DNA of 64,000 nucleotides from Streptomyces bottropensis ATCC 25435 (lineage in GTDB: Bacteria; Actinomycetota; Actinomycetes; Streptomycetales; Streptomycetaceae), in NCBI RefSeq assembly GCF_000383595.1, contig NZ_KB911581.1, forward strand, positions 2,300,265 to 2,364,264. The letters are read 5' to 3'. The notes under the pieces were generated by a model. The model was given only the letters and a program-made list of their open reading frames with translations. It was not told the DNA's origin and did not search any database. Below, piece after piece: positions 1,097 to 35,277 of the stretch. Each line of letters starts with the position of its first letter. Position 1 is the first letter of the stretch. Both the position numbers and the translations under genes were made by a program.

Positions 1097-1792
1097 TCAC
1101 GGCCGGGGTCGCAGCGGCGGCCGGGGAGCGGGAGGCCCGCCGGCAAGACCGGTGACCAGACGCGTGCAGACGTCCCGGAGCTTGAGATTGGTTTCCTGGG
1201 AGAGCCGGCGGAGCAGGTCGAAAGCCTCTTCCGCGGTGCAGTGCCGCCGTTGCATCACGCTGCCGATGGCCTGGTCGATGACGCTGCGCGAGGCGAGCGC
1301 CGTCTGCAGGTCGCGGCTGAAGTCCTCCGCGTCGGCCAGCCGCTGCGCCAGCGCGAGCCCGCCACCTGCCTGCGCGGCGAGCAGCGCGAGCCTGCCTCGG
1401 TCGTCCTCCGTGAACGCGTCCTGGCCGGCGGCATAGAAATTGAGGGCCCCTGCGGTATGGGTGCGGGCGGGTATCGGCAGGGACAGCGAGGAGCGGATAC
1501 CCATGTCGGCCGCGAACCCTGGGAAGGACTCCCACCGGGCCTCACCCAGCATGTCCGGCACATACACGCTGCCCCCGCTGCGCAGACAGTGAAGGCACGG
1601 GCCGTCGTCCAGTCCGTACTGTTTCTCGTCCAGCTTTTCCGCCACCCCACCGGTGCTGACCACGGTCAGCGGCCGGTGCCGCCGTTGCACGGTCACGCCG
1701 CAGCCGTCCGCGGCCGAGGCGCTGACGGCGTCGTCCACCAAGTGCTGCAGGAACTCCCGAAGGGAAGTGGTCTCCAAGAGCCAGTCGATCAT
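1097..1792 (-). CDS. GAF and ANTAR domain protein (copy 1)
   Basis: This is a predicted cytoplasmic RNA-binding antiterminator with an N-terminal GAF sensor (about residues 10-150) and a C-terminal ANTAR domain (about 160-220). The GAF part contains DEKQYGLDDGPCL and RSSLSLPI, which are typical of streptomycete GAF-ANTAR proteins. The ANTAR part has SRSVIDQAIGSVM followed by AFDLLRRLSQ. ANTAR domains bind paired RNA hairpins and suppress termination; the targets here are unknown. The ATG at 1792 (MIDWLLET) was chosen because it aligns with the internal VMQWLLET of the copy at 2430-3155. The frame is open further upstream, but that part has arginine-rich, non-conserved sequence and contains a 23-bp tandem repeat. 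The length is 231 residues. Confidence 0.85.
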   Translation of the reverse strand: MIDWLLETTSLREFLQHLVDDAVSASAADGCGVTVQRRHRPLTVVSTGGVAEKLDEKQYGLDDGPCLHCLRSGGSVYVPDMLGEARWESFPGFAADMGIRSSLSLPIPARTHTAGALNFYAAGQDAFTEDDRGRLALLAAQAGGGLALAQRLADAEDFSRDLQTALASRSVIDQAIGSVMQRRHCTAEEAFDLLRRLSQETNLKLRDVCTRLVTGLAGGPPAPRPPLRPRP

Positions 1793-1852
1793 GTCGAGTA
1801 CATGTCGATCGCGATCGGGCCGGTCCACCGCCCGCCACCTCCCATTGTTGTG

Positions 1853-1900
1853 ACAGCCGTTTCCGTTCCACTCGCACAGCCGTTTCCGCTCCACTCGCAC
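1853..1900. repeat. 23-bp tandem duplication upstream of GAF-ANTAR copy 1
   Basis: Two head-to-tail 23-base units (1853-1875 and 1876-1898) begin with ACAGCCGTTTCCG and differ by one base (T or C at position 14). They sit about 60 bases upstream of the ATG at 1792, in the probable promoter of that gene. A recent local duplication or a repeated regulatory site are both possible. Confidence 0.85.
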
Positions 1901-1936
1901 GGATACCCACTGCACCCGGCTTCCTGACACCCCCCT

Positions 1937-2125
1937 GTGCTGTACACCGACGGTCTGGTCGAGCACCGAGGCGAGGACCTCGACATCGGCCTCGCACGCA
2001 TGATTACGGCCCTGGCCCAGGACCCACCCTCGCCCCCGAGCAGCCGGCCGACGCGCTGCCGCGCCGTCTCTCGGCGTCGCCGACGGAGGCCCCGATGACA
2101 TCCCCTCGTCATCATCCGCCTCTGA
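1937..2125 (+). pseudogene. Remnant of a SpoIIE/PP2C-type phosphatase C-terminus
   Basis: Read on the plus strand, the segment starts with VLYTDGLVEHRGEDLDIGLARM, the closing motif of SpoIIE/RsbU-type PP2C serine phosphatases (the LYTDGLVE metal-site strand). The similarity then moves between frames: LAPEQPADALPRRL in a second frame, ADGGPDDIP in a third, and LVIIRL followed by TGA (2123-2125) after one more shift. The expected family ending is a DD(I/V)xLLxxRL pattern. At least three indels are therefore needed, so this is a dead fragment. No N-terminal part was found upstream. Such phosphatases commonly work with MEDS, STAS and GAF proteins, so this patch probably once held a larger signalling cluster. 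Confidence 0.75.
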
Positions 2126-2429
2126 ACTGTGCACCGCCCTTCGAGGGCCCACGGGGCTGTCTGCACGGGGATGAGAAACGGGCGATCTCAGCGACCAGGA
2201 GAGGCACGCGCGTCGTGTCGAGGCCGATCTGCCAGGCGCCCTCGGTGACACCATCGCCAAGTCCCCTGACTCGGGAGGGTTGTGCCATCGTGCTCGCTGC
2301 TGCTGAGAGGCAGGTGCAGGACAAGGGTGGCGGTGTGGGCCAGTCATGCGCGAAAACGAACATGAGCCGCTGCTGTCCCCCAAGGGGGCGGCGAGCAGTG
2401 TCACACGGGGAGATCGGCGCTCCATCGCT
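2126..2429. other. Intergenic stretch, no gene recognised
   Basis: This gap of about 300 bases lies between the phosphatase remnant and the stop codon of GAF-ANTAR copy 2. A minus-strand frame of 83 codons (2112-2363) crosses it, but it lacks a convincing ribosome-binding site and any family pattern. It is likely further decayed sequence. Confidence 0.45.
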
Positions 2430-3155
2430 TCATGGCCGGGGGCGCAGGTCAGGGCCGGCGGGGGGTTGCCCGGTGAGGTTGGTGATCAGTTCGGCGCACA
2501 GGTCGCGGAGTTTGATGTTGCGGTGCTGGGAAGCGGAGCGCAGGATGTCGAAGGCGTCGTCGGCGGTGCAGCGGCGTTGGCCCATGATCACCCCGAGGGC
2601 CTGGTCAATGACGCCACGGGAGTGCATCGCCGTCTGCATCTGCTCGGCGAACTCCTGCGCGTCGGCGATGCGCTGGGCCAGAGCGATGGCGCCGGTGGCC
2701 TGCGCGGCCAGTGAGCGCAGCGCGCTGAGATCGGCGTCCTTGAAGGCGTGGGGCGGGCCCGCGTAGAGGTTCAGGGCGCCGGTGGTGTGGGTGCGGGCGG
2801 AGATCGGCAGGGAGAACGAGGAGCGGATCCCGCAGGCCGCGGCGTAGGCCGGGTAATTGCCCCAGCGGGTCTCCCTGAGCATGTCCTCGACGACGACCTC
2901 TTCGCCGGTGCGGGCGGACCGAAGGCACGGGCCGTCGTCCTGGCCGTACTGTTTCTCGTCCAGCTTCAGCGCCGGCGGACCCGCGCTGGCCACGGTCAGA
3001 GGCCGGTGATCGCGTTCGATCGTGACCCCGGCGCCCTCGGCGCGGGTCAGTTCCAGAGCCGCGTCGGCCAGAGACTGCAGGAAGCCCTCCAGTGACTCGG
3101 TCTCCAGCAGCCACTGCATGACGGAAGCACTGTCGTGCGTGTCGTCGGAACTCAC
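2430..3155 (-). CDS. GAF and ANTAR domain protein (copy 2)
   Basis: This 241-residue protein has the same layout as the gene at 1097-1792: a GAF domain (about residues 15-160, with DEKQYGQDDGPCL and RSSFSLPI) and an ANTAR domain (about 170-230, with SRGVIDQALGVIM). It should act as a cytoplasmic antiterminator. The GTG start at 3155 has an AAGGA box seven bases upstream, and an internal ATG lies at the position equivalent to the start chosen for copy 1. The two paralogues share long identical runs, so they look like a tandem duplication followed by divergence, split by about 640 bases that include a phosphatase remnant. The signal sensed by the GAF domain is unknown. Confidence 0.88.
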   Translation of the reverse strand: MSSDDTHDSASVMQWLLETESLEGFLQSLADAALELTRAEGAGVTIERDHRPLTVASAGPPALKLDEKQYGQDDGPCLRSARTGEEVVVEDMLRETRWGNYPAYAAACGIRSSFSLPISARTHTTGALNLYAGPPHAFKDADLSALRSLAAQATGAIALAQRIADAQEFAEQMQTAMHSRGVIDQALGVIMGQRRCTADDAFDILRSASQHRNIKLRDLCAELITNLTGQPPAGPDLRPRP

Positions 3156-6666: not shown

Positions 6667-9358
<2,692 letters not shown>

Positions 9359-19986: not shown

Positions 19987-20367
<381 letters not shown>

Positions 20368-20433: not shown

Positions 20434-21150
20434 TCAGCGCACGCCACCGTCGACACGCAGCACCTGACCATTGATGTAACTGCTCTCCGGCGAGGCCAGG
20501 AAGAGCACCGCCCGGGCCACCTCGTCGCCCGTACCGGGACGTCCGGCCGCGAGCGACGGGGCGAGCTTCGGCCACAGCGTCTCGTTGCCGATGAGGGCCT
20601 TGCCCATGCCGGAATCGATGTAGCCCGGCGCCACGCAGTTCACGGTCACCCCGTCCGCGGCCAGCTCCAGCGCGGCGACGGCGGTGAACGCCTCGACCGC
20701 AGCCTTCGACGCGCAGTACGCCGCGGCGCCCGGCATGGCGCGCGAACCCAGGAGGGAGGACATGGTGACGATCCGGCCGCCCGGGGTCTCACGCACATAC
20801 GGCGCCGCCGCCCGCACGGTGTGGAACACGCCGTGCAGATTCGTGTCGACCACCTCGTTCCAGTGCTGCACGGACAGCGCGGCGACCGGGCCCGGGCGGC
20901 TCAGACCCGCGTTCGCCACCACGATGTGCGGACCCCCGTACCGCTCGTGGACCGTGTCCATCAGCGCCGCCATCGAGTCGGGGGCGGTCACGTCCGCCTT
21001 CAAGGCGATCAGCCCGTCACCGGGGTCGTCCGGGACCTCCCGTGCGGCCACCACGACGGTGGCTCCCGCACCGGTGAGCGCGAGCGCCACGTCCCGGCCG
21101 AGCCCTCGGGTCCCCCCGGTGACGACGGCGGTCCTGCCACGCAGATCCAT
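20434..21150 (-). CDS. SDR ketoreductase (second, tailoring type)
   Basis: This 238-residue SDR has the cofactor motif GGTRGLG, the motif ANAG, catalytic Ser in MSSLLGS, YCASK, and a closing YINGQVLRVDGG. The ATG at 21150 follows GGAGGAG at a proper distance; the longer frame upstream overlaps the candidate SARP site and is not coding. It is not of the ActIII type, so it should act after ring closure. In the rishirilide pathway, as I recall, a ketoreductase (RslO10) is needed late to reach rishirilides A and B. This gene is a candidate by context. It is a single-gene leftward transcript with its own candidate SARP site. Confidence 0.88.
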   Translation of the reverse strand: MDLRGRTAVVTGGTRGLGRDVALALTGAGATVVVAAREVPDDPGDGLIALKADVTAPDSMAALMDTVHERYGGPHIVVANAGLSRPGPVAALSVQHWNEVVDTNLHGVFHTVRAAAPYVRETPGGRIVTMSSLLGSRAMPGAAAYCASKAAVEAFTAVAALELAADGVTVNCVAPGYIDSGMGKALIGNETLWPKLAPSLAAGRPGTGDEVARAVLFLASPESSYINGQVLRVDGGVR

Positions 21151-22391: not shown

Positions 22392-23201
22392 ATGGAATTC
22401 GGCGTGCTCGGGGGGCTGTCCGTCGAGGACAGCGATGGCCGCCATCTGCCCACCGCGCCCAAGCAGCGCCAGCTGCTCGGTCTGTTGCTGCTCCACGCGG
22501 GCGAGGTCATGCCCGCCCACACCTGTGTGAGCGAGATCTGGGGCGAGCATCCGCCGCCCAGCGCGGCCACCACCCTGCAGACGTATGTGATGCACCTGCG
22601 CCGACTGCTGGCCCGCATGCCGTCCGTCGGCTCCCGTGAGGCCGCCCGTGACCGGCTCAGGACGACCGGACAGGGCTATCTCATGGTCGTCGAGCCCGAG
22701 GAGCTGGACCTGCTCAGGTTCGAGCGGCTCGTCGAGCAGGCGGGCCGGGCCGGCGACGACGCCACCGTGGAGCGGCTGCTGCGCGGCGCGCTCGCTCTGT
22801 GGAGTCGGCCCGTCCTCGCCGATGTGCGGACCGGACCGGTGCTCCGGTCCGCCGTCACCCACTGGGAGCGGCGCCGTCTGGAGGTCCACGAGATGTATCT
22901 CGATGTGCGGCTCCGGCTCGGACGCCCGCGCGACGTGCTCGCCGAACTGGCCGTCCTCACCCGCAGCCACCCCACCCACGAAGCCCTGCACGCCCGGTAC
23001 ATGACCGCGCTCCACCAGACCGGCCGGGCCGGTGACGCGCTCGATGTCGCGTCCCGGCTCACCAGCCGGCTCGCCCGCGACCTGGGCGTCGTGCCGGGCC
23101 CCGTGATCGGGCGGCTGCAGGCCGCGATCCGGCGCGGCGGCAGCGTCGTCGTCCCCTTTCCGCTCGTCCCACCGTCCGTGCCCGGCCGGCGCCGGCCGTA
23201 A
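22392..23201 (+). CDS. Small SARP transcriptional activator (SARP 3)
   Basis: This 269-residue SARP has a winged-helix domain (APKQRQLLGLLLLHAG, about residues 15-100) and an activation domain (about 105-255, ending DLGVVPGPVIGRLQ). It is similar in length and sequence to SARP 2, so the two are paralogues. The ATG at 22392 was chosen because the conserved start MEFGVLGGLSV is typical; the longer frame upstream runs through the promoter. It heads a rightward transcript with the phosphotransferase, flavin reductase, luciferase-like monooxygenase and ABC transporter genes, so it may control its own operon. Confidence 0.92.
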   Translation: MEFGVLGGLSVEDSDGRHLPTAPKQRQLLGLLLLHAGEVMPAHTCVSEIWGEHPPPSAATTLQTYVMHLRRLLARMPSVGSREAARDRLRTTGQGYLMVVEPEELDLLRFERLVEQAGRAGDDATVERLLRGALALWSRPVLADVRTGPVLRSAVTHWERRRLEVHEMYLDVRLRLGRPRDVLAELAVLTRSHPTHEALHARYMTALHQTGRAGDALDVASRLTSRLARDLGVVPGPVIGRLQAAIRRGGSVVVPFPLVPPSVPGRRRP

Positions 23202-23214
23202 GGAGACCCCTCCC

Positions 23215-24342
23215 GTGCCCGTACCTCTGCAACGCGACCCCGACCTGACCCGTGCCGTCCTCACCCACTGGTTCGGCACCCGTTCCGCCGAGATCGGTGC
23301 GGTCGAGCTCGGACCCGTCACCGTGCCGAAGGAGGCGGGATTCTCCGGAGAGATCCTGCTGTTCGACGCCGAGTGGACCGAGGGCGGCACCTCCCGGCGG
23401 CGGCCGCTCGCGGTCCGCGTCGCCCCGACCGGGCACCGGGTCTTTCCCGAGGACTTCTGGGGCGACCAGGTACGGCTGCTGAAGCTGCTCGGCGACACCG
23501 GCCTGCCCGTACCGCCGGTGCTGTGGGACGAGCCCTCCGCCGAGTACCTGGGCGCGCCGTTCCTCGTCATGGAACGCGTCGACGGCCAGGTGCCCGCCGA
23601 TCTGCCCTCCTACCACCGGCAGGGCTGGCTGACCCGGCTGCCGCCCCCCGGCCGGGCCGCCGTGTGGAACGGGGGAGTGGACGCGCTCGCCGCCGTCCAC
23701 CGCCTCGACCCGAAGGAGGCGGGGGCCGACTTCCTCGACCGGCCCGAGTTCGGCCCCACCGGTCCGGCGCAACTGCTGCGGCACTTCACGCATCACCTGG
23801 ACTTCTACGGGGTCGCCGACGACAACACGACCGCGGCCGACGCTCTCGACCGGCTGCGCGCCCACGTGCCCGACGACCAGGGACCGGCGTCGCTGCTCTG
23901 GGGCGACGCCCGGATCGGCAACATCATCTACGCCGGGACGCGGCCCGCCGCGCTGCTCGACTGGGAGATGGCCGCGTTGGGGCCCGCCGAGAGCGACCTT
24001 GCCTGGTACCTGCACATGGACCGGCACCTCAGCGAGGGCATCGGCCTGCCCCGGCTCGCCGGGCTGCCCGGCCGGGCCGAGACCGTGGCCCGCTGGGAGG
24101 AGGGTGTCGGGCGCACCGCGCGCGACCTTCCGTACTACGAGCTGTTCGCGGCGTACCGGTTCTGCGTCGTCACCGCGCGTGTGGCCCGGCTGCTCGACGA
24201 GAGCGGCATCCTGCCCCCCGGCACCGACTTCCCCCTGCACCGCAACGCGACGGCGCTGCTGGCGAAGGTGCTGGACGAGCACCGCCGGAACTCCCCCTCC
24301 AGAGGTTATGGACCCGCCCTCCAGCGCCCTTCGAAAGCCTGA
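23215..24342 (+). CDS. APH-fold phosphotransferase family protein
   Basis: This 375-residue protein shows the aminoglycoside phosphotransferase/choline kinase-like fold: PFLVMERVDG in the hinge, the catalytic LLWGDARIGNIIY (the D and N of the Brenner motif) and LLDWEMAALG (metal-binding D). The GTG at 23215 follows AAGGAG, 13 bases after the SARP 3 stop. Homologues in aromatic polyketide clusters are of unclear purpose. Phosphorylating an intermediate for activation or resistance are both possible, and some family members occur fused or linked to acyl-CoA dehydrogenases. The family call is firm and the substrate is unknown. Confidence 0.85.
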   Translation: MPVPLQRDPDLTRAVLTHWFGTRSAEIGAVELGPVTVPKEAGFSGEILLFDAEWTEGGTSRRRPLAVRVAPTGHRVFPEDFWGDQVRLLKLLGDTGLPVPPVLWDEPSAEYLGAPFLVMERVDGQVPADLPSYHRQGWLTRLPPPGRAAVWNGGVDALAAVHRLDPKEAGADFLDRPEFGPTGPAQLLRHFTHHLDFYGVADDNTTAADALDRLRAHVPDDQGPASLLWGDARIGNIIYAGTRPAALLDWEMAALGPAESDLAWYLHMDRHLSEGIGLPRLAGLPGRAETVARWEEGVGRTARDLPYYELFAAYRFCVVTARVARLLDESGILPPGTDFPLHRNATALLAKVLDEHRRNSPSRGYGPALQRPSKA

Positions 24343-24368
24343 GCGGGCAAGGGAGGAGCTACAGACCC

Positions 24369-24887
24369 ATGGCGATCGATGACGAACTGTTCCGCGCGAT
24401 GTTCAGCGCGCACCCGGCCGCGGTCTGTGTCGTCACCGCCGCGGGCCCCGACGGCCGGCCGAGCGGTCTGACGACCAGCGCCGTCACCTCCGTGTCGATG
24501 GACCCGCCGTTGCTGCTCGTGTGTGTGGGCACCGGGTCGCGGACCCTGGCCGCCATCCGGCACTCGGGCGGCTTCGCGGTCAACTTCCTCGCCGTGCACA
24601 ACGAACGGCTCTCGGAGCGCTTCGCCGGCAAGAGCACCCAGAAGTTCGACGGCCTCGACTGGCGGCCCTCGGGGCGGGCCGCGCAGGCCCCACTCCTGCC
24701 CGCGCACCACCTCAGCGCCGTCGCCGAGTGCCTGGTGCACCAGGAGGTACCGGCCGGCGACCACAGCGTGTTCCTGGGCCGGATCGAGGGCGCCGTCGTG
24801 CACGGCCGCGCGCCGATGCTCTACCACGAACGCGACTACATCCATCTGCCCGTACCGGCCCTGTCCGGGACCGTGACGGCCGACTAG
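24369..24887 (+). CDS. Flavin reductase, two-component monooxygenase partner
   Basis: This 172-residue protein of the HpaC/flavin reductase-like family shows AAVCVVTAAGPDGRPSGLT, TTSAVTSVSMDPPLLLVC and the family GDH motif (PAGDHSVFLGRI) near the C-terminus. It should use NAD(P)H to make FMNH2 or FADH2 for the luciferase-like monooxygenases. The ATG at 24369 follows a GGGAGGAG box. It lies directly before the second LLM gene, the classic arrangement for a two-component oxygenase, and may also serve the LLM encoded at 12826. Confidence 0.92.
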   Translation: MAIDDELFRAMFSAHPAAVCVVTAAGPDGRPSGLTTSAVTSVSMDPPLLLVCVGTGSRTLAAIRHSGGFAVNFLAVHNERLSERFAGKSTQKFDGLDWRPSGRAAQAPLLPAHHLSAVAECLVHQEVPAGDHSVFLGRIEGAVVHGRAPMLYHERDYIHLPVPALSGTVTAD

Positions 24888-24954
24888 CCGGCAGCCGCGG
24901 CCCCCGGCCGCGACGCACACACCGTCCGTCCAGCCATCACATCGAGAGGACCCC

Positions 24955-26019
24955 ATGAAGTTCGGCATCAACCTCTTCCCCACCGTGGGACCTGCGGAGA
25001 AATCCGCCGGACAGCACTTCGAGGAGTCGCTTCGGCTGGCCGAACTCGCCGACGAACTGGGCTTCCACCATGTCAAGACCGTCGAGCACTACTTCCACGA
25101 GTACGGCGGCTACAGCCCGGACCCGGTGACCTTCCTCGCCGCCGCCGCGGCCCGCACCCGCCGGGTACGCCTCGTCACCGGCGCCGTACTGCCCGTCTTC
25201 ACGCACCCGCTGAAGCTGGCCGGCAAGCTCGCCATGCTCGACAACATCTCCCAGGGCCGCCTGGACGTCGGCTTCGGACGGGCGTTTCTGCCCGACGAGT
25301 TCACCGCGTTCGAGATCTCGATGGACGAGAGCCGGGCCCGCTTCGACGAGGGCGTCGAGGCGGTCCGCCGGCTCTGGGCGGAGGAGGACGTCGTCTGGGA
25401 GGGCACCTTCCACCGCTTCGGCCCGGTCACCATGCTTCCGCGCACCTGGCAGCGCCCGCATCCGCGCATCCTCGTCGCCACCGCGAAGACGCCCGCGTCC
25501 GCGGAGGCGGCGGCCCGCGCCGGGCACGGCGTCATGCTCGTCCCTTCCATCAACCCCCGCGAACAGGTGCAGAAGACGCTCTCCCTGTACCGCGACGCCG
25601 CCTCCGCCGCGGGCTTCAAGCCCACCGAGGAGGACATCCACATGAGCTACAACTGCTACCTCGCCGAGGACGGCCAGGAAGCCCGGCAGAAGGGCGGACA
25701 GGCCTCCGAGCGGGCCAACCGGGCGCTCGCGTCCGCGGTGTCCGCGTGGCGCGAGACCCGCAGCGCCGACTACCCCGGATACGAGAAGATCGTCGAGAAG
25801 GCGGGCCGCGGCGACTTCGACCGCGCGGTCGCCGAACGCAAGGCGCTGGTCGGCACCCCCGACGAAGTGCGGGCCGCGATCGACGACATCCGCGGCTGGT
25901 TCGGGGACTTCACCATCAGCCTCCAGGTCATCTCCGGCGCCATGCCGTTCGAGGAATCGGCCCGCACCATGCGCCTGTTCGCCGAGCACCTTCTGCCGCA
26001 CTACGCAGCGAACGACTGA
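24955..26019 (+). CDS. Luciferase-like flavin-dependent monooxygenase (2)
   Basis: This 354-residue LLM-class TIM-barrel protein starts KFGINLFPTVG, has HVKTVEHYFHEYGGYSPDP, TGAVLPVFTHPLKLAGKLAMLDNIS and GRLDVGFGRAFLPDEF. It differs strongly from the LLM encoded at 12826. The ATG at 24955 has a GAGAGGA box. It sits next to the flavin reductase gene, so it is expected to use reduced flavin for hydroxylation or epoxidation of the polyketide. The rishirilide and mensacarcin clusters also contain more than one LLM enzyme, as far as I recall. Confidence 0.92.
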   Translation: MKFGINLFPTVGPAEKSAGQHFEESLRLAELADELGFHHVKTVEHYFHEYGGYSPDPVTFLAAAAARTRRVRLVTGAVLPVFTHPLKLAGKLAMLDNISQGRLDVGFGRAFLPDEFTAFEISMDESRARFDEGVEAVRRLWAEEDVVWEGTFHRFGPVTMLPRTWQRPHPRILVATAKTPASAEAAARAGHGVMLVPSINPREQVQKTLSLYRDAASAAGFKPTEEDIHMSYNCYLAEDGQEARQKGGQASERANRALASAVSAWRETRSADYPGYEKIVEKAGRGDFDRAVAERKALVGTPDEVRAAIDDIRGWFGDFTISLQVISGAMPFEESARTMRLFAEHLLPHYAAND

Positions 26020-26033
26020 GGGACGGACCGCCG

Positions 26034-26993
26034 ATGGTTTCCTTGCGCACCGAGCACGGCCGCACGGGCCCGGGCGACGGCACCGGCGGCGAGGACCGTA
26101 CGTCCCGGGCCCGCAGGCTCCGTTCGGACGGAACCGGCGGGCCGGGCCGGAAGGCGGCGGACGGGGCGGACGCGGCGTTCGCACGGCCGCGCCCCCGCCC
26201 GCTTCGCTGGGTGGCCGCGGCGGCGGGCCTGGTCCTGTTGGCGATGGCCCTCAACGCCCTGATCACCAACGACGCGTTCCGCTGGGACGTCGTCGCCAAG
26301 TACCTCTCCGCGGAGACGGTGCTCGCCGGACTCGGCACCACGCTGTGGCTGACGGCGATCGCCTTCACCGGCGGCTTCGTCCTCGGCACCGCGCTCGCCG
26401 TGATGCGGCTGTCCCGCAACCCGATCCTCGTGACGCTGAGCTTCGGCTACACCTGGTTGTTCCGGTCCGTTCCGATGCTCGTGCAACTGCTTTTCTGGTA
26501 CAACATCTCGCTGCTGTACCCCGAGCTGTCCCTCGGCATCCCGTTCGGGCCCGCGTTCACCGAGTTCTCCACCGAGCGGATGATCAGCGGCCTGACGGCC
26601 GCCGTCATCGGGCTGGTCCTCCACGAAGCCGGGCAGCTCGCCGAGATCGTCCGGGCGGGCATCCTCTCCGTCGGACGCGACCAGACCGAGGCCGCGGAGG
26701 CCCTCGGCCTCGGCGGCTGGCGGACCTTCCGCCGCATCGTGCTGCCGCAGGCCATGCCCGCGATCCTGCCGCCCGCCGGCAGTCAGATCATCGGCCTGCT
26801 GAAAGGCACGTCCATCGTCAGCGTCATCGCCGTACAGGACCTGCTCTACGCGACCCAGCTGATCTACAACCGCAACTACCTGGTCATCCCGCTGCTTCTG
26901 GTGGCCACGCTCTGGTACCTGCTGCTGACCACGCTGCTCAGCGTCGTCCAGCACTTCGTCGAACGGCGCTACGCGACGGGGGACCGCGGATGA
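26034..26993 (+). CDS. Amino-acid ABC transporter permease
   Basis: This 319-residue polar amino-acid permease of the HisM/GlnP type has a hydrophilic, arginine-rich N-terminal extension of about 55 residues and about six membrane helices. The EAA loop is AAEALGLGGWRTFRRIVLPQA, the coupling helix for the ATPase. The ATG at 26034 lies 15 bases after the LLM stop. Only one permease is encoded, so a homodimer is likely. Its stop overlaps the ATPase start (ATGA). An importer inside a polyketide cluster is unusual. Uptake of valine or a related amino acid for the branched starter unit is a reasonable idea, not shown by sequence. Confidence 0.9.
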   Translation: MVSLRTEHGRTGPGDGTGGEDRTSRARRLRSDGTGGPGRKAADGADAAFARPRPRPLRWVAAAAGLVLLAMALNALITNDAFRWDVVAKYLSAETVLAGLGTTLWLTAIAFTGGFVLGTALAVMRLSRNPILVTLSFGYTWLFRSVPMLVQLLFWYNISLLYPELSLGIPFGPAFTEFSTERMISGLTAAVIGLVLHEAGQLAEIVRAGILSVGRDQTEAAEALGLGGWRTFRRIVLPQAMPAILPPAGSQIIGLLKGTSIVSVIAVQDLLYATQLIYNRNYLVIPLLLVATLWYLLLTTLLSVVQHFVERRYATGDRG

Positions 26994-27739
26994 TCGAGGC
27001 AGTCGGTGTCCACAAGTCGTTCGGCGGGCTGACCGTACTGGACGACGTCTCGCTCACCGTCCCCGAGTCCACCGTCACCTGTGTCATCGGCCCCTCGGGA
27101 TCGGGCAAGAGCACCCTGCTGCGGTGCGTCAACCGGCTGGAGCGCATCGACGCCGGACGCATCGTCGTCGACGGCGAACTCGTCGGCCACGAGTGGCGAG
27201 GCGACCGGCTCTACGAGCGCCCCCGCCGCGCGATCGCCCGGCAGCGGACCCGTACCGGCATGGTCTTCCAGAACTTCCGGCTCTTCCCGCACATGACGGT
27301 GCTCGGCAATGTCACCGAGGCACCGCGCGCCCTGCTCGGGCTGAGGCGTGCCCCGGCCGAGGAACGGGCCCGCGACCTGCTCGCCAGGGTCGGCCTCGCG
27401 GGGAAGGAGACCTCCCGTCCGCATCAGCTCTCCGGGGGCGAGCAGCAGCGGGCCGCGATCGCCCGGGCCCTCGCCATGGAACCGAGGGCGATGCTCTTCG
27501 ACGAGCCGACCAGCGCGCTCGACCCCGAACTCACCCAGGAGGTGCTGACCGTGATCCGGGAACTCGCCGACGGCGGGATGACGATGATCGTCGTCACGCA
27601 CGAGATGCGGTTCGCCCGGGAGATCGCCGACCAGGTCCTCTTCATGGACAACGGCAGGGTGGTCGAGACGGGCCCGCCGGACGAGGTCTTCGACGCCCCG
27701 CACAACGACCGCCTGGTCCGCTTCCTGGCCCGTGGCTGA
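26990..27739 (+). CDS. Amino-acid ABC transporter ATPase
   Basis: This 249-residue nucleotide-binding subunit has Walker A GPSGSGKST (about residues 34-42), Q-loop FQNFRLFPHMTV, signature LSGGEQQR, Walker B AMLFDEPTSALD and switch His in VVTHEM. These are the features of the GlnQ/HisP polar amino-acid group. The ATG at 26990 overlaps the permease stop, so the two are translationally coupled. It energises uptake together with the permease before it and the lipoprotein after it. Confidence 0.94.
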   Translation: MIEAVGVHKSFGGLTVLDDVSLTVPESTVTCVIGPSGSGKSTLLRCVNRLERIDAGRIVVDGELVGHEWRGDRLYERPRRAIARQRTRTGMVFQNFRLFPHMTVLGNVTEAPRALLGLRRAPAEERARDLLARVGLAGKETSRPHQLSGGEQQRAAIARALAMEPRAMLFDEPTSALDPELTQEVLTVIRELADGGMTMIVVTHEMRFAREIADQVLFMDNGRVVETGPPDEVFDAPHNDRLVRFLARG

Positions 27740-27849
27740 CGCGGAGGCCGCGCCGCCGCCCGCGCTCGACGGGAGGCCGTGCCCGGTCCCCGCCCCTCAC
27801 CGTGCCCCACCCGTCCCAGAACAGAGCCCCGTACCGTCGAGGAGACCCC

Positions 27850-28815
27850 ATGTCCCGAACTCCGGCCGCGCGCCCCACGGGCGTGCGCGGACGTCGCCCG
27901 CGCACCACTCGGGCGCTCACCACGGCAACCCTGTTCACCCTGCTCCTCGCGGCCTGTGGCTCCGGCAAGGAGGAGATCCCCGAGGACACCCGGGCCGCCG
28001 ACCTGGGGCGCGAGGACGTCGTCTCCGCGGTCCACGAGGAATCCGCCATCTCCGCGGCCCTGCCCGCGAAGCTGCGCGAGTCGGGGGTGCTGCGCATCGG
28101 TTCCGGCATCGGCGTGCCCCCCGTCGCGTTCAGCCCCGAGGACGGCGGCCCGCCGCGCGGCATCGACATCGATGTCTCCGAGGCCGTGGCCCGCGTCCTC
28201 GGACTCAAGGTGGAGCGCAAGCACGTCAGCGGCGCCTCCCTCATCACCGGCCTGAGCGCCGGCCGGTACGAACTCGGCACCGCGAATCTCGCCGTGACCG
28301 AGGAACGCAAGCAGGTGCTCGACTTCGTCCTCTACGTCACCGACGGCACCGGCTTCGCCGTGCGGGACGGCAGCGCGCTGAAGAAGGTCGACGACCTCGG
28401 TCAGCTCTGCGGACTGCGCGTCGGCACCGGTACGGGCACGACGTTCGAGGCGGATCTTGAGGCGGCGAGCAAGGAATGCGCGGCCGACGACAAGGAGCCG
28501 ATCGAGATCAGTACCTACCCGGACGCGGCCGCGCACTTCCTCGCGCTGCGCCAGGGCCGGGTGGACGTCCTGATGACGACGGCCAGCGTGCTGCGTTACG
28601 CGGCCACCCAGCAGCCGGACCTGCGCTACCTCAACGAGATCGAACGCAAGAACATCGGTCTCGCCGTCAAGAAGGGCTCCCCGCTCGCCGAACCCCTGAA
28701 GGAGGCGGTGAACCAGCTCATCGAGGACGGCACGTACGCGAAGATCCTCAAGAAGTGGCAGCTGGAGCCGGCGGCCGTCGAGAAGTCGGTCGTCAACCCG
28801 CCGGCGCAGCCCTGA
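27850..28815 (+). CDS. Amino-acid ABC transporter substrate-binding lipoprotein
   Basis: This 321-residue periplasmic-type binding protein (SBP family 3) starts with an arginine-rich signal sequence and a lipobox LLAAC with the lipid cysteine at residue 36. The mature part shows GVLRIGSGIGVPPVAF, GIDIDVSEAVARVLG, and CGLRVGTGTGTTFEADL, as in polar amino-acid binders. The ATG at 27850 follows GAGGAG. It is the last gene of the SARP 3 transcript and is followed by a terminator. The bound amino acid cannot be told by eye. Confidence 0.9.
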   Translation: MSRTPAARPTGVRGRRPRTTRALTTATLFTLLLAACGSGKEEIPEDTRAADLGREDVVSAVHEESAISAALPAKLRESGVLRIGSGIGVPPVAFSPEDGGPPRGIDIDVSEAVARVLGLKVERKHVSGASLITGLSAGRYELGTANLAVTEERKQVLDFVLYVTDGTGFAVRDGSALKKVDDLGQLCGLRVGTGTGTTFEADLEAASKECAADDKEPIEISTYPDAAAHFLALRQGRVDVLMTTASVLRYAATQQPDLRYLNEIERKNIGLAVKKGSPLAEPLKEAVNQLIEDGTYAKILKKWQLEPAAVEKSVVNPPAQP

Positions 28816-28941: not shown

Positions 28942-29985
28942 TCATCCGGATCCCGTCTCTCCCGCGCCCGTACCCGTGAACTCCACGATCGCGCAGCTCC
29001 AGGTGAAACCCGCACCGACCCCGAACAGCAGCCCCAGTTCACCGGCGCGCGCCCGGCCCGACTCGGCGAGGAACGCGAGACCCGCGAACTGGTCACCGGC
29101 CCCGAGGTGACCGACCGAACGGCCCCACCGCCAGGTGGTCCGCTCCTCCTCGATGCTCCAGCGACGCAGGAACGTGGAGTTCAGCCGGCCGCGTCCGAAG
29201 TTCGGGAGCACGAACCAGGAGAGGTCGGCGAGCGTGCAGTCCGCCTCGGCGAGCGCCCGCTTCAACGTCTCGTCCTGCCCGGCCGTGATCCGGGCGACGC
29301 TGTACGACCGCCCCGTGTCCTCGATGAACGCCCTCTGCAGCAGCCCCAGATCGATGGGCTGCCGGACGGCGAACGGCACCGGCGAGAACGGGTCCCGCCC
29401 CCTGTGCATCTGTTCGAGATCGGCGTCCGACACGGTCACCAGGCTGCGCAGCCGCGCGAAACCCCCGCGTCCCCGGGCCAGGACGAGCGCGGTACCAGCG
29501 TCCCCGTACACGGTGCCGGGGTCACTGCGCCAGCGGTCGAAGCCGGGATCTGTGAACACGTCGCCCGTGGTCAGCAGCCCGGCCGTGGGGCCGGGCGCGC
29601 CGGCGAGGTAGGCGGACGCGAGTTCCAGCGCGGCCATGCCCCCGTTGGAGAGCTGCTTGATCTCGATCGCGGGGCATCGGTTGCCGAGCGCGTATCGCTG
29701 GATGTACGAGGCGGGGGCCCACAGATCGTGCCCCTGGTGCTGCACGGTCGCGTGCAGCACCAGATCGATGTCGGTGGGATGCGTGCCGGTACGCTCCAGC
29801 ACCTGCCGCGCCGCGCCCACCGCGAGTTCGGGCGCGGACGAGCCCGTCGACACCGCCACGGAGGCGATCCCGCTGCGCGTCGCGGTGCGCTCGTCGCACC
29901 GCCCGTCCCGCAGCGCCTCCGCCACGGTGGTCGTGCCCTCCAGGTGCACGGCGGCCCCGGCGATGTACAGGTCCTCGAACCTCAT
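28942..29985 (-). CDS. KSIII-like starter-unit ketosynthase/acyltransferase with Ser in place of Cys
   Basis: This 347-residue thiolase-fold protein of the FabH/KSIII family is expected to choose and load or condense the starter acyl group. The usual nucleophile Cys is replaced by Ser113 in KQLSNGG. The usual PHQAN histidine region reads LPNFGRG (Asn262), and the normal NTSAAS motif reads GHLGAGDQ (His293, Asp298). This Ser/His/Asp pattern resembles DpsC of daunorubicin biosynthesis as I recall it, not ZhuH-type Cys enzymes. The ATG at 29985 has an AAAGGG box; a GTG at 30003 is possible. It is divergent from the acyltransferase and PKS genes. A branched starter is inferred. Confidence 0.9.
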
Positions 29986-30037
29986 GTCCCGATGCCCTTT
30001 CACCGGCCGTCAGGGGAACCACGGTCGGGACACCGAC

Positions 30038-30072
30038 GGCCGCCGGGCCGGGTGGTACCCGGCCCGGCGGCC
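30038..30072. other. 16-bp hairpin in the divergent KSIII/AT promoter region
   Basis: A perfect inverted repeat (30038-30053 and 30057-30072) with a three-base loop GGT sits 53 bases upstream of the KSIII start and 240 bases upstream of the acyltransferase start. It looks like a terminator, but no coding transcript ends here. It may lie in the KSIII leader RNA or mark the end of a small antisense transcript. The rest of the 327-base gap (29986-30312) holds candidate SARP site e and no gene. Confidence 0.7.
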
Positions 30073-30145
30073 TTCGTTCCGCCCGCGGCGCACCGGGGCG
30101 ACGGGTCGCGTGCCTCCGGCTGGGGACAACACTCCGGCCGGCCGG

Positions 30146-30171
30146 TGGACGAGCGGTCCAGAACGGCTGGA
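30146..30171. promoter_or_regulatory. Candidate SARP operator (site e)
   Basis: TGGA at 30146, TCCA at 30157 and TGGA at 30168 are 11 bases apart and match perfectly. The site is in the divergent region between KSIII (start 29985) and the acyltransferase/minimal PKS operon (start 30313), so it may switch both. Confidence 0.65.
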
Positions 30172-30312
30172 GCGGCTCGGTCGGGGCCGCTGCGAGGCGG
30201 ACGGCGTCCGTGCGGTGCCGCGCCGCCCGGCCGCGGACGTTGTGCCCGGGGTCGACCGAGGCTCCAGCCGACGCCTCCAGCATGGCGGGACAGCGAGGAG
30301 AGGAGACCCGTC

Positions 30313-31404
30313 GTGACCGCACCGCGGCCGGCCGTACTGCTGTTTCCCGGGCAGGGCGCGCAACAACCCGGTATGGGCGTCGGCCTGTACCGCGCCCATC
30401 CGGGTTTCCGGACCCGCATGGACGAGGTCCTCGGACTGTGGCGCGCGCACGGGTTCGATCTGCGCGCCGACTGGCTCGCCGCCCGCACCGGCCCGGAGAC
30501 CGACGGTCCGCGCACCGCCCAGCCGCTGCTGTTCGCACTCGACTGGGCCGTCGGCCGCACGGTCCTCGACGCCGGGGTGCGGCCCGCGGCCCTGCTCGGG
30601 CACAGCGTCGGAGAGGTCGCCGCGGCCACCCTCGCCGGCCTCTTCGACCTGACCGACTCCGTGGCCCTGATGGCGGACCGCATCAGCCAGCTCGACGGCA
30701 CCCCGCCGGGCGGCATGCTCGCCGTGCAGGCGAGCCCCGACGAGGTCACCCCGTACACCACCGACGAGGTCGTCGTGGGCGCCGTCAACGCGCCCCGCCA
30801 GGTGCTGCTCGCCGGCCCCGAGGAGGGCCTGCGCACCGCGCAGCAGAAACTGCGCGCCGACGGCTTCACCTGCCGCAGGGCTCGCGCGCTCAACCCGTTC
30901 CACAGCCCGGTGCTCACCGAAGCGGCCCTGCGCGCGCTGCCGCTGCTCGCCTCGGTGCCCGTCCGTCGGCCCCGGTTGGTACTGCACTCGGCGTACGAGC
31001 CCGGGCCCCTGACCTACGAACGGGCCCGGGACCCGAGGTTCTGGGCGCTCCAGCCCGCGCGTCCCGTGCTGTTCGGGCCGGCGCTCGACCTCCTGCTCGC
31101 CGAGCGGGAGGTGGTGCTCGCCGAGGCGGGTCCGGGACAGGGGCTCACCGTGCTCGCGCGCCGCCATCCACGGGTCGCGAGAGGAGGCTCCCGGGCGGTC
31201 GGTCTGCTGCTCGCGCGCCCCGGCACACCCGAAGCCGAGCGCGAGGCCTTCGACAGGGCCCTCGCCGAACTCTCCGACGCACCCGCAGAACCGGCCGCCG
31301 ACGCGACGGCACAGGCGTCCAGGCCGGTTCGAGCGGGTCTCCAGGCCGGATTGACACGTTTGCGACCCGGGACCGGAGCGCCGGTTCCCGCCGACAGCGA
31401 GTGA
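30313..31404 (+). CDS. Acyltransferase (malonyl-CoA:ACP transacylase-like)
   Basis: This 363-residue FabD-like acyltransferase has LLFPGQGAQ, the nucleophile Ser98 in GHSVGE, and the His in NPFHSPVL. In type II systems a dedicated AT next to KSIII usually supports a non-acetate starter. It supplies extender or starter groups to an ACP, or, as known for ZhuC, removes acetyl primers so that the special starter is used. The GTG at 30313 follows GAGGAGAGGAG. It is the first gene of the minimal PKS operon and ends nine bases before KS-alpha. Confidence 0.9.
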
Positions 31405-31412
31405 GGATGCCC

Positions 31413-32681
31413 ATGGAACGACGCGTCGTCATAACCGGAATCGGTGCGGTGGCGCCCGGGGGAACAGGGATCAAGAGGTACTGGGATCTGCTGTCGACCG
31501 GGCGGACGGCCACCCGCACCATCTCCCTCTTCGATGCCTCCCCGTACCGCTCCCAGGTCGCGGCCGAGGTCGACCTCCGGCCCGCCGCGGCGGGGCTGTC
31601 CCCGCAGGAGGAGCGCAGGCTCGACCGCGCGGGCCAGTTCGCGCTGATCGCCGCCCGGGAGGCGGTGGCCGACTCCGGCCTCGACCTCACGACCTCACAG
31701 GCGGCGCGCACGGGTGTGTCGCTCGGCTGCGCGGTGGGCTGCACCACGTCGATGGAGGACGAGTACGTCGTCCTGAGCGACGGCGGCGCCCACTGGCTCG
31801 TCGACCCCGCGTACGCGGTGCCCCGGCTTTACGACCACTTCGTGCCGAGCTCGCTGGCCGCCGAGCTGGCCCGCGAGGTCGGGGCCAAGGGTCCGGTGTC
31901 GCTGGTCTCCGACGGCTGCACCTCCGGCCTCGACGCCGTCGGTCACGGGGCCGATCTCATCCGCGAGGGCAGCGCCGACGTCATCGTCGCGGGGGGCACC
32001 GACGCGCCGATCTCACCCATCACCCTCGCCTGCTTCGACGCCATCAAGGCGACCACGCCCCGCAACGACGACCCCGAACACGCCTCCCGCCCCTTCGACA
32101 ACTCCCGCAACGGGCTCGTCCTCGGCGAAGGCGCGGCGGTGCTGATCCTGGAGGAACTCCAGCACGCGCGGAAGCGCGGCGCACGGATCTACGCCGAGGT
32201 CGCCGGATTCGGCACGCGCAGCAACGCGTACCACATGACCGGACTGCGCTCGGACGGCGCGGAGATGGCCGAGGCGATCCGGGTGGCGCTCGCGGAGGCG
32301 CGGCTCGCACCGGGGGAGATCGACTACGTCAACGCGCACGGCTCCAGCACCAAGCAGAACGACCGGCACGAGACCGCCGCGTTCAAGACCTCGCTCGGCG
32401 AGCACGCCCACCGGGTGCCCGTCAGCTCCATCAAGTCGATGATCGGGCACTCGCTCGGCGCGATCGGCGCGCTCGAACTCGTCGCATGCGTGCTCGCCAT
32501 GGAGAACGGCCTGATCCCGCCCACCGCGAACCTGCACGAACCCGATCCGCTGTGCGACCTCGACTACGTCCCCAACATCGCGCGGGAGGCCCGGGTCGAC
32601 TCCGTGCTCAGCGTCGGCAGCGGCTTCGGCGGTTTCCAGAGCGCCGTCGTCCTCGCCCGTCCCGAAAGGAGTGCCGCGTGA
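31413..32681 (+). CDS. Type II PKS ketosynthase alpha (KS-alpha)
   Basis: This 422-residue condensing enzyme extends the polyketide chain with malonyl-ACP. The active site is complete: Cys169 in SDGCTSG, His309 in [11 protein letters not shown], Lys341 and His346 in [10 protein letters not shown]. The ATG at 31413 has GAGG six bases upstream; another ATG lies two codons earlier. Its stop overlaps the start of KS-beta (GTGA), as is normal for the obligate heterodimer. It should work in the cytoplasm with KS-beta and the ACP to build an octa- to decaketide. The chain length is set mainly by KS-beta and cannot be read safely by eye. Confidence 0.97.
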
Positions 32682-33904
32682 CGGCCACCGCCACCCGACC
32701 CGTGATCACCGGACTCGGTGTCGCCGCCCCCACCGGCCTCGGCACCGACGCACACTGGTCGGCCGTCGTCGAGGGCACGAACGGCATCGCGGAGATCACC
32801 CGTTTCGACGCCTCCGGTTACCGGGTGCGGCTCGCCGGCGAGGTACCCGGCTTCGAGGCCTCCGCGCACATCCCGAGCCGGCTGCTGCCCCAGACCGACC
32901 ACATGACCCGCCTCGCCCTGTACGCGGCCGACGAGGCACTGAAGGACAGCGGTATCGATCTCGCCGCCCTGGCCCCCTACGAGGCAGGCGTCTCCTCGGC
33001 CTCGTCGATGGGCGGCTTCGAGTTCGGCCAGCGCGAACTGCAGAACCTGTGGAGCAAGGGCGGCCAGTTCGTCAGCGCGTACCAGTCCTTCGCCTGGTTC
33101 TACGCCGTCAACACCGGCCAGATCTCGATCCGGCACGGGCTGAAGGGCCCGAGCAGCGCCGTCGTCACCGACCAGGCGGGCGGACTCGACGCCATCGGGC
33201 ACGCGCGGCGGCAGATCCGCAAGGGTACGAAGGTGATGCTCGCGGGAGGCGTCGACGGCGCCCTGTGCCCACTGGGCCTCGCGGGACAGCTCGCGTCCGG
33301 TCGGCTCAGCACCGAGAACCGCCCCGACCGCGCTTACCTGCCCTTCGACGAGGCGGCGTCGGGCCATGTCCCGGGCGAGGGCGGCGCGTACCTGGTGCTG
33401 GAGGACCCGGTGTCCGCCGAGGAACGCGGCGCCCGTGTCCACGGCGAACTCGCCGGATACGCGGCCACCTTCGACCCCGATCCGCGCGACCCCGGGGCCG
33501 ACGGTCTGGAGCGCGCGATCCGTGCCGCCCTCGCGGACGCGGACCGTACGCCCGACACCATCGCCGTCGTCTTCGCGGACGCGGCCGGCGTACCCGAGGC
33601 GGACCGGGCCGAAGCGGCCGCGCTCGCCGCGGTGTTCGGCCCCCGCGGGGTACGGGTCGCGGTACCGAAGGCGCAGACCGGCCGCCTGTACGCGGGCGGC
33701 GGGGCCCTCGACCTGGCCTCCGCGCTGCTGGTCCTGCGTGACGGGAGCGTTCCCCCGACCGCGCACGTCACCTCGGTCGCCGCGGACTGCCCCGTGGACC
33801 TGGTGACGGGCGAGGCGCGCACGCTCACCGGCGACGCGGCGCTGGTCCTGGCCCGCGGCGAGGGCGGCTTCAACGCGGCCGCGGTGGTCACGCGCGCGAA
33901 CTGA
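32678..33904 (+). CDS. Type II PKS ketosynthase beta / chain length factor
   Basis: This 408-residue partner of KS-alpha has the thiolase fold but carries Gln166 in VVTDQAGG where KS-alpha has its Cys, the hallmark of a chain length factor. The GTG at 32678 overlaps the KS-alpha stop by four bases. The protein lines the growing-chain tunnel and sets polyketide length. It is followed 93 bases later by the ACP gene, which completes the minimal PKS. Confidence 0.97.
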
Positions 33905-33997: not shown

Positions 33998-34267
33998 ATG
34001 AGCGCCAACGGGGTCACGGCACTGAGCATCGACGACTTCACCCGCATCCTGCGCGAGTCGGCCGGCCAGGACGAGGGCGTCGACCTGAGCGGAGACATCG
34101 CCGACGTGTCCTTCACGGACCTCGGCTACGACTCCCTCGCCCTGCTGGAGGTGGCCGGCCGTATCACCCGCGCCTACGGCGTGACCCTTCCCGACGAGGA
34201 CCTCGACGGCGCCGAGACCCCCCGGGCCTTCGTCGACCTGGTCAACTCGTCCCTGTCGGGAAGCTGA
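33998..34267 (+). CDS. Type II PKS acyl carrier protein
   Basis: This 89-residue ACP has the phosphopantetheine site Ser46 in DLGYDSLALLE, the standard motif of aromatic PKS carrier proteins. The ATG at 33998 follows GGAAGGAA. A longer frame upstream is only the leader. It carries the starter, the extender units and the growing chain between AT, KS/CLF, ketoreductase and cyclases. It ends the operon and is followed by a strong terminator. Confidence 0.96.
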   Translation: MSANGVTALSIDDFTRILRESAGQDEGVDLSGDIADVSFTDLGYDSLALLEVAGRITRAYGVTLPDEDLDGAETPRAFVDLVNSSLSGS

Positions 34268-34329: not shown

Positions 34330-35277
34330 TCAGCGGGACGCGGTGCGTTCCGCGGCCTCCTTGGCCAGGGTGAGGGTGGCCGTGCTGTTCCTGCCGAGGG
34401 CCTCGCGTACGAGGTCGCGGGCCGCGGCGAGTGTGGCTTCGGGGCCCAGCAGTTCGCGCACCCGATCCGGGCGCAGGACGACCGTGTGGTGCGAGGTGGC
34501 GCGCACCCCGCCCTCGGTGGTCTCGACGGTCCAGCGGCCCGTGTGCGCGGCCATCAGCGGGGGCACCTGGATCTGCTTGTACACGAGCCGGTCCGGCGCG
34601 AACCCGACGCGTACCGACTTGGTCGTGTGTACCGAACCGTCGGCGGCGCGGGTATCCATCTCCACCGTCTGCAGGTCGTCGCCCGGCTCGGTCAGCACGA
34701 GCCTGCTCACATGCGGAAGCCGCTCCTCCCACAGGTCGGCCCGCCACAGGAAGTCGTACACCTCCTGCCGCGCGCCCGAGATGTCGACGTGATCGGAGAA
34801 CGACAGCAAGGCCCCCGGCTCCGCTGCCAGGGACTCCGCGGCCGTCTTCAGCGCGGCCAGCTCGGATTCGCTGTTGGTGTCGACGGCGCGCCCCACCCAC
34901 TCACGGTCCGCCGGGTCGTCGTCGACGACGGTGAAGTCGTGCAGCAGGACGACGCTACTGCCGCCCGGCGCGGCCTCGATGATCCATTCGCCGCCCATCG
35001 ACGCGACCGGCGCGGACGACACCTCCTGGCGGAACGTCACCCGCAGCGCGCTCGGATCCAGTTCCCGGCGGGAGGTCCACGACCGCACCTCCCCGTTCGC
35101 GAACGCCCGGATCCGCAGCCGTTCCGACCGGCCGTCCCGGTCGAACTTCTCCACATGCACGGTGGGAGGAAAAATGTGCGGCCAGTCCTCCGCCGCCGCG
35201 ATCAGCTCGTACACGGCCTTGGGCTCGGCCGCCACATGGATCGCATGACGCGTCCTGACGACGCCTGAGTCCGGCAT
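34330..35277 (-). CDS. Didomain polyketide aromatase/cyclase
   Basis: This 315-residue protein has two SRPBCC (START-like) halves (about residues 5-150 and 160-310). Each has a cavity-forming helix-grip pattern, for example AEPKAVYELIAAAEDWPHIFPP in the first half and GARQEVYDFLWRADLWEERLPHV in the second. This is the layout of first-ring aromatase/cyclases that act after a C-9 ketoreductase, such as the ActVII type. It should guide the C7-C12 aldol and aromatise ring one. It is convergent with the ACP gene and has a candidate SARP site just upstream of its ATG at 35277. Confidence 0.93.
   Translation of the reverse strand: MPDSGVVRTRHAIHVAAEPKAVYELIAAAEDWPHIFPPTVHVEKFDRDGRSERLRIRAFANGEVRSWTSRRELDPSALRVTFRQEVSSAPVASMGGEWIIEAAPGGSSVVLLHDFTVVDDDPADREWVGRAVDTNSESELAALKTAAESLAAEPGALLSFSDHVDISGARQEVYDFLWRADLWEERLPHVSRLVLTEPGDDLQTVEMDTRAADGSVHTTKSVRVGFAPDRLVYKQIQVPPLMAAHTGRWTVETTEGGVRATSHHTVVLRPDRVRELLGPEATLAAARDLVREALGRNSTATLTLAKEAAERTASR

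Follow-up and report, generated by a model that had tools for sequence, protein, structure and literature searches.

The gene at 28942-29985 of the window, the whole 64,000-nucleotide stretch of DNA analysed here, is almost certainly rslK4 of the published rishirilide (rsl) cluster, with a DpsC-like product. On the best reading this product is probably a priming enzyme that acts as an acyltransferase and starter gate. The system is already known, as the pathway is characterised, the enzyme class described, and both protein and cluster published, which closes the question raised by a first-pass annotation of the sequence. Beyond this, the substitution of a DpsC active-site histidine by Asn262 is a modest, testable extra.

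The gene and its cluster

Translation of the minus strand yields an open frame of 347 residues with an ATG at 29985 and the stop codon at 28942-28944. The plus strand over the same interval is stop-free in the same frame as well. A GTG at 30003 is a possible alternative upstream start, but the alignments of DpsC, CerJ and ChlB3 obtained in a search of PDB sequences begin at residues 1-5 of the ATG form. The gene, its active-site codons and its neighbours are as follows.

28942-29985, minus strand: RslK4, DpsC-like (Ser-His-Asp) KSIII-fold protein and probable priming enzyme, 347 aa (translation, best PDB match DpsC, tree, fold, 55% identity to DpsC)
29647-29649, minus strand: Ser113 codon (DpsC Ser118; FabH Cys112 column; alignment)
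29200-29202, minus strand: Asn262 codon (DpsC His266; FabH His244 column; alignment)
29107-29109, minus strand: His293 codon (DpsC His297; FabH Asn274 column; alignment)
29092-29094, minus strand: Asp298 codon (DpsC Asp302; alignment)
30313-31404, plus strand: acyltransferase with GHSVG motif, RslA by position, start uncertain (GTG 30313 or ATG 30373; Pfam Acyl_transf_1, motif)
31449-32681, plus strand: KS-alpha of the minimal type II PKS, active-site Cys in DGCTSG (FabF-family matches, motif)
32678-33904, plus strand: KS-beta or chain length factor (CLF), Gln at the nucleophile position, TDQAGG (FabF-family matches, motif)
33998-34267, plus strand: acyl carrier protein (ACP), the only one found in the window (Pfam PP-binding)
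34330-35277, minus strand: polyketide cyclase/aromatase, putatively RslC1 (Pfam)
20065-20367, plus strand: RslO4 antibiotic biosynthesis monooxygenase (100 of 100 residues identical to PDB 7bio)
6667-8268, minus strand: RslO9 FAD monooxygenase (identical to PDB 9qm3 save one internal residue and the start-codon residue)
20434-21150, minus strand: SDR ketoreductase, presumably RslO3 by position (Pfam; transcription units in PMC7917814)
22392-28815, plus strand: SARP regulator, APH-type kinase, flavin reductase, luciferase-like monooxygenase and a likely three-gene ABC transporter (domain matches; order in PMC7917814)

The cluster is assigned as rsl because of the 100% identity of RslO4, the near-100% identity of RslO9 and the gene order. 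Entry 7bio is RslO4 (PMC8093152), and 9QM3 is RslO9 cloned from S. bottropensis (PMC12903851). By order, the genes at 22392-28815 correspond to rslR1-P-O2-O1-T3-T2-T1; the kinase was matched to rslP and the ABC transporter genes to rslT1-T3 by order only, with the permease at 26211-26993 assigned without a scan of its own. The divergent MFS/MarR pair, the MarR-luciferase-SARP order and the SARP-x-flavin reductase-luciferase run agree with the rsl units as given in PMC7917814 and in table 2 of PMC7221717. Since RslO9 differs at one internal residue from the solved protein, the strain may differ from the published one. The window protein is RslK4 or a near-identical sister-strain counterpart, assigned by cluster identity and gene order; its equation with the RslK4 of S. 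bottropensis in PMC7221717 comes from the shared cluster.

Of 27 PP-binding places found in the genome, one lies inside the window. Besides the single ACP listed above, the window showed no ACP devoted to initiation of the kind known from R1128.

Three further features of the region were noted. The acyltransferase frame (29107-31404, plus strand) extends a long way upstream without a stop, overlapping rslK4 on the opposite strand; its start is probably at 30313 or 30373, and an automatic caller could over-extend it. Adjoining the rishirilide cluster is a long, mostly minus-strand run (36213-63634) in which 9 of the 10 proteins scanned match Pfam families, including aminotransferase, dTDP-sugar epimerase, pyruvyl transferase, glycosyltransferase, asparagine synthase-like and heparinase-like matches; the run has the appearance of a distinct polysaccharide or cell-surface cluster. 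Just beyond the amidohydrolase end of the rishirilide cluster, two adjacent GAF-ANTAR proteins are encoded on the minus strand (1097-3119).

Family, fold and active-site residues

A phmmer search of PDB sequences returns DpsC (4xs7) as the best match of RslK4 (E = 1.8e-111), followed by CerJ (7e-62), ChlB3 (1e-55), NatS (7vyu; 2e-55) and 9z38 (6e-49), a chain named 3-oxoacyl-ACP synthase-3. Other FabH chains match at 1.6e-11 or weaker. In alignments, RslK4 is 55% identical to DpsC, 40% to CerJ and 34% to ChlB3. All eight NCBIfam models that match RslK4 score under their own cut-offs, with TIGR00747 reaching 54.5 bits against a cut-off of 292.1.

The AlphaFold2 model of RslK4, built from 24 sequences, has a mean pLDDT of 88.7, with residues 81-90 and about 191-210 forming blocks at 58-68. 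In the fold comparison the top five structure rows are DpsC entries (Z 48.8-49.0, rmsd 1.8-1.9), and the best superposition (Z 49.0, 1.8 Å, 334 residues) gives the predicted model a KSIII (thiolase) fold. These are followed by CerJ (Z 45.5), ChlB3 (44.2) and NatS (42.2), with FabH/OleA types at 33.7 or lower; the FabH rows are 17-22% identical to RslK4 in superposition. A midpoint-rooted tree was computed, with columns 113 and 262 masked, from 80 rows, of which 77 are relatives and the other three DpsC, CerJ and ChlB3. It places RslK4 and DpsC in a 56-row group composed entirely of Ser types (support 95/86). The first-pass annotation had likened the protein to DpsC and not to the Cys-type enzymes ZhuH and FabH, and had proposed structure prediction with superposition and a KSIII phylogeny as checks; sequence match, fold and tree all bear out the likeness.

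Ser113, His293 and Asp298 of RslK4 align with Ser118, His297 and Asp302 of DpsC, and the FabH His position is occupied by Asn262. A 2025 review gives S118-H297-D302 as the DpsC triad and as the definition of DpsC-like enzymes (PMC12664062). Residue equivalence between RslK4, DpsC and FabH is taken here from sequence alignments, not structural superposition. The four columns fall at 138, 286, 317 and 322 of the 4xs7 chain, and a constant offset of 20, ascribed to additional residues at the N-terminus of the construct, brings them to 118, 266, 297 and 302; the His266-His297 numbering of DpsC is that given in the ChlB3 paper (PMC9573744). In the propionyl-DpsC entry, 5wgc, the Ser118 column holds an X.

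Three of the four FabH-family proteins from the same genome (L124, L125 and L126) have Cys/His/Asn/Ser at columns 113/262/293/298. The weakest of the four (L127), which is below the family cut-off, has Cys/Pro/Asn/Leu. From FabH to RslK4, Cys is thus replaced by Ser, His by Asn and Asn by His, with an Asp in addition at 298. FabH and ZhuH, the condensing KSIII enzymes, have the thiolase fold in common with RslK4, but their Cys-His-Asn triad is replaced in RslK4 by Ser/Asn/His. The acyltransferase pattern of CerJ and ChlB3 consists of a Cys nucleophile with a His-Asp pair; RslK4 has the His-Asp pair, but the nucleophile is Ser instead.

These columns agree with the first-pass annotation where it read the FabH nucleophile Cys as Ser113, the PHQAN His region as LPNFGRG and the NTSAAS Asn region as GHLGAGDQ. 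LPNFGRG spans residues 260-266 with Asn262 at the FabH His column, and GHLGAGDQ spans residues 292-299 with His293 at the FabH Asn column. The annotation had recorded the first of these motifs but missed that its Asn differs from His266 of DpsC. It had also described a moved catalytic triad, and the residues are as it named them, but they are not particular to RslK4: on the aligned sequences, the DpsC/CerJ/ChlB3 family as a whole shares the moved triad, with Ser the rule in the DpsC branch. A hidden Cys nucleophile, the alternative it had raised against Ser113, is judged unlikely from the alignment, as Cys 30, 104 and 331 are common to DpsC and Cys250 is Ala there.

Residue 262 in RslK4 and its relatives

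Eighty-five relatives, RslK4 included, were compared. In this sample, which is not random and has biased proportions because its members were found by similarity to RslK4, His293 and Asp298 are present in 85 of 85, and at position 113 Ser occurs 77 times and Cys 8 times. The triad pattern is therefore not due to chance, and the idea that Ser is a quirk of RslK4 alone is rejected. Residue 262 is more variable, being His in 58 of the 77 Ser types, Asn in 14, Ala in 3, Gln in 1 and Phe in 1. The tree requires at least five Ser/Cys changes at 113 and at least eight His/not-His changes at 262, and several Ser-type proteins fall outside its DpsC branch. CerJ has a gap at column 262 in the tree alignment.

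The genus search (392 genomes, E 1e-125) gave four matches including RslK4 itself, the other three at 65% identity; the class-wide search (394 genomes, E 1e-85) gave 12, none above 59% identity apart from RslK4 itself. Among the matches listed, 69 places were used, made up of 29 loci (L012-L040) and 40 chosen stretches (L041-L080). One short match in L068, the duplicates L005, L006 and L076, and L001, which is RslK4 itself, were left out, and L119, L120, L121 and L123 repeat places already used. L031 and L032, which contain an internal stop, were kept and trimmed at the first stop. Nine spurious fragments or wrong-strand frames were taken out before the alignment of the 85 relatives, and L112-L118 and L122 are counted among the 85 and absent from the tree.

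Five very similar relatives (L063-L067) carry KNASNGC at the Ser site together with His262, have only distant KS/AT neighbours and form a long branch of their own in the tree (0.8 changes per column). The same genome as rslK4 also encodes a second KSIII-like protein, 40% identical to RslK4 (L076, G000:C1:7132011-7151900; match at 7142011-7143027, minus strand). It has Cys for Ser and Ala at the 262 column and lies near CerJ in the tree, and a PP-binding place (7138822-7139010) is about 3 kb off.

The Asn that replaces DpsC His266 is common to RslK4 and its three closest relatives sampled (L012, L004 from Streptomyces shenzhenensis and L008 from Streptomyces sp. ISL-12), and ChlB3 has Asn in this column too. 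With Asn in 14 of the 77 Ser-type relatives and at least eight changes at this column in the tree, Asn262 is not unique to RslK4. Nor is it a fixed hallmark of rishirilide-type clusters. The next relative, L009, whose KSIII is 75% identical to RslK4, keeps His262, and it lies in an rsl-type cluster with a KS-alpha 90% and a luciferase 89% identical to those of the window. Its genome also contains a RslO9 homologue (75% identical), apparently on the same contig and about 20 kb off. Since this rsl-type cluster keeps His262, Asn262 is dispensable for a rishirilide-type pathway.

Columns 262/293 are Asn/His in RslK4, His/His in DpsC and His244/Asn274 in FabH, in which this pair holds the malonyl enolate (PMC10054515). 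Condensing thiolase-fold enzymes have His with Asn or His with His as the enolate-donor pair, and RslK4 has Asn262 with His293, in the order opposite to FabH. Asn262 appears to mirror the FabH His/Asn pair, and it strains the published proposal that malonate is condensed by RslK4. A tentative proposal from the residues is that the priming ketosynthase of the rishirilide lineage no longer has the His that helps malonyl decarboxylation (Asn in place of DpsC His266) and may now be, or be becoming, an acyltransferase only, or alternatively that it is a condensing enzyme with the FabH His/Asn pair swapped. In the former case the main synthase or fatty acid synthesis would have to carry out the first condensation of the published scheme.

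A sharp test case is offered by close homologues that diverge at a single active-site position, with Asn in four and His in L009. The contrast bears on whether this His marks the divide between priming enzymes that condense and those that only transfer acyl groups, and also on the correctness of the first step published for rishirilide assembly. In the literature searched, which includes parts of the main texts of PMC7221717, PMC8093152 and PMC9769936, we found no discussion of Asn262, and the word 'serine' does not occur in the portion of the PMC7221717 text covered.

Proposed role in priming

In the proposed mechanism, Ser113 would be activated by His293-Asp298 and take the acyl group from a branched acyl-CoA as an acyl-O-Ser ester. 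The acyl group would be isobutyryl, or an isohexanoyl chain built from isobutyryl, and RslK4 would pass it to the acyl carrier protein. KS-alpha/CLF would then start from the delivered acyl group and not from acetate, and the first malonate condensation would take place elsewhere, on KS-alpha/CLF or in fatty acid synthesis. The acyl transfer, the substrate named and the absence of condensation are our inferences; the portions of the literature searched yielded no acyl-enzyme or activity measurements for RslK4.

DpsC, the daunorubicin priming ketosynthase, has the same triad as RslK4 and is its best PDB match and closest fold. Self-acylation and transfer to ACP, by a Ser that a His-Asp pair activates, have been reported for it (PMC12664062), and an acyltransferase gene adjoins rslK4 as DpsD accompanies DpsC (PMC12664062). 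The two differ at His266/Asn262 and in their starter, in that DpsC primes with propionyl (PMC12664062) whereas rishirilide starts from isobutyrate (PMC7221717). ChlB3 (7eqi), the 6-methylsalicylyl acyltransferase of chlorothricin, resembles RslK4 in the Asn column, the His-Asp pair and the KSIII fold, but has a Cys nucleophile and delivers an aromatic acyl to ChlB2, an ACP (PMC9573744). CerJ (3s3l), the malonyl transferase of cervimycin, shares the His-Asp pair and fold, but also has a Cys nucleophile and transfers malonyl to a sugar hydroxyl (PMC9573744).

Deletion of rslK4 in an S. albus host gave RSH-K4a and RSH-K4b, which have altered side chains, and rishirilide B was still made (PMC7221717). 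This phenotype suits the starter-fidelity role that the first-pass annotation had suggested, and a gate fits it better than an obligatory condensing enzyme does. The non-essential phenotype and the single ACP found in the window favour acyl transfer with gating, and the change of DpsC His266 to Asn262 favours transfer and gating as the main job. We lean, with some hesitation, towards acyl transfer dominating over condensation in RslK4. Counterpoints are that L009 keeps His262 in an rsl-type cluster, that Asn can donate a hydrogen bond, so that decarboxylation may survive, and that the fatty acid enzymes of S. albus could substitute in the deletion host.

A less probable alternative is the published R1128-like scheme, in which RslK4 picks isobutyryl-CoA and joins it to a malonyl unit in a condensation that yields 3-oxo-isohexanoyl-ACP; this product is reduced (by RslO3 and others) and then loaded on KS-alpha/CLF. 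The authors who described rslK4 compared its product with AknE2, DpsC and ZhuH and proposed that RslK4 and RslA condense the starter with malonyl-CoA as in R1128 (PMC7221717). The triad alone is compatible with this, and does not by itself support the suggestion of the first-pass annotation that the protein may act instead of decarboxylating malonyl-ACP by the usual route, since DpsC, which has this triad too, is described both as a KS, with decarboxylative Claisen condensation, and as an acyltransferase (PMC7949117). Moreover, Asn262 and His293 could still provide two hydrogen-bond donors, in the reverse order of FabH His244/Asn274. The loss of His266, the persistence of rishirilide B without rslK4 (PMC7221717) and the single ACP in the window argue against the scheme, as does the Asn that ChlB3, an acyltransferase according to its authors, has at the 262 column (PMC9573744). 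The ChlB3 analogy is weakened, however, because the same paper states that among ChlB3, DpsC and CerJ all except CerJ catalyse Claisen condensation.

It is very improbable that RslK4 is catalytically weak and chiefly a structural fidelity partner of RslA or KS-alpha/CLF, as might be read from the continued production of rishirilide B without rslK4 (PMC7221717), given that RslK4 has a complete triad and an intact fold, both of them conserved among the sampled close relatives, with Ser in 77 of 85.
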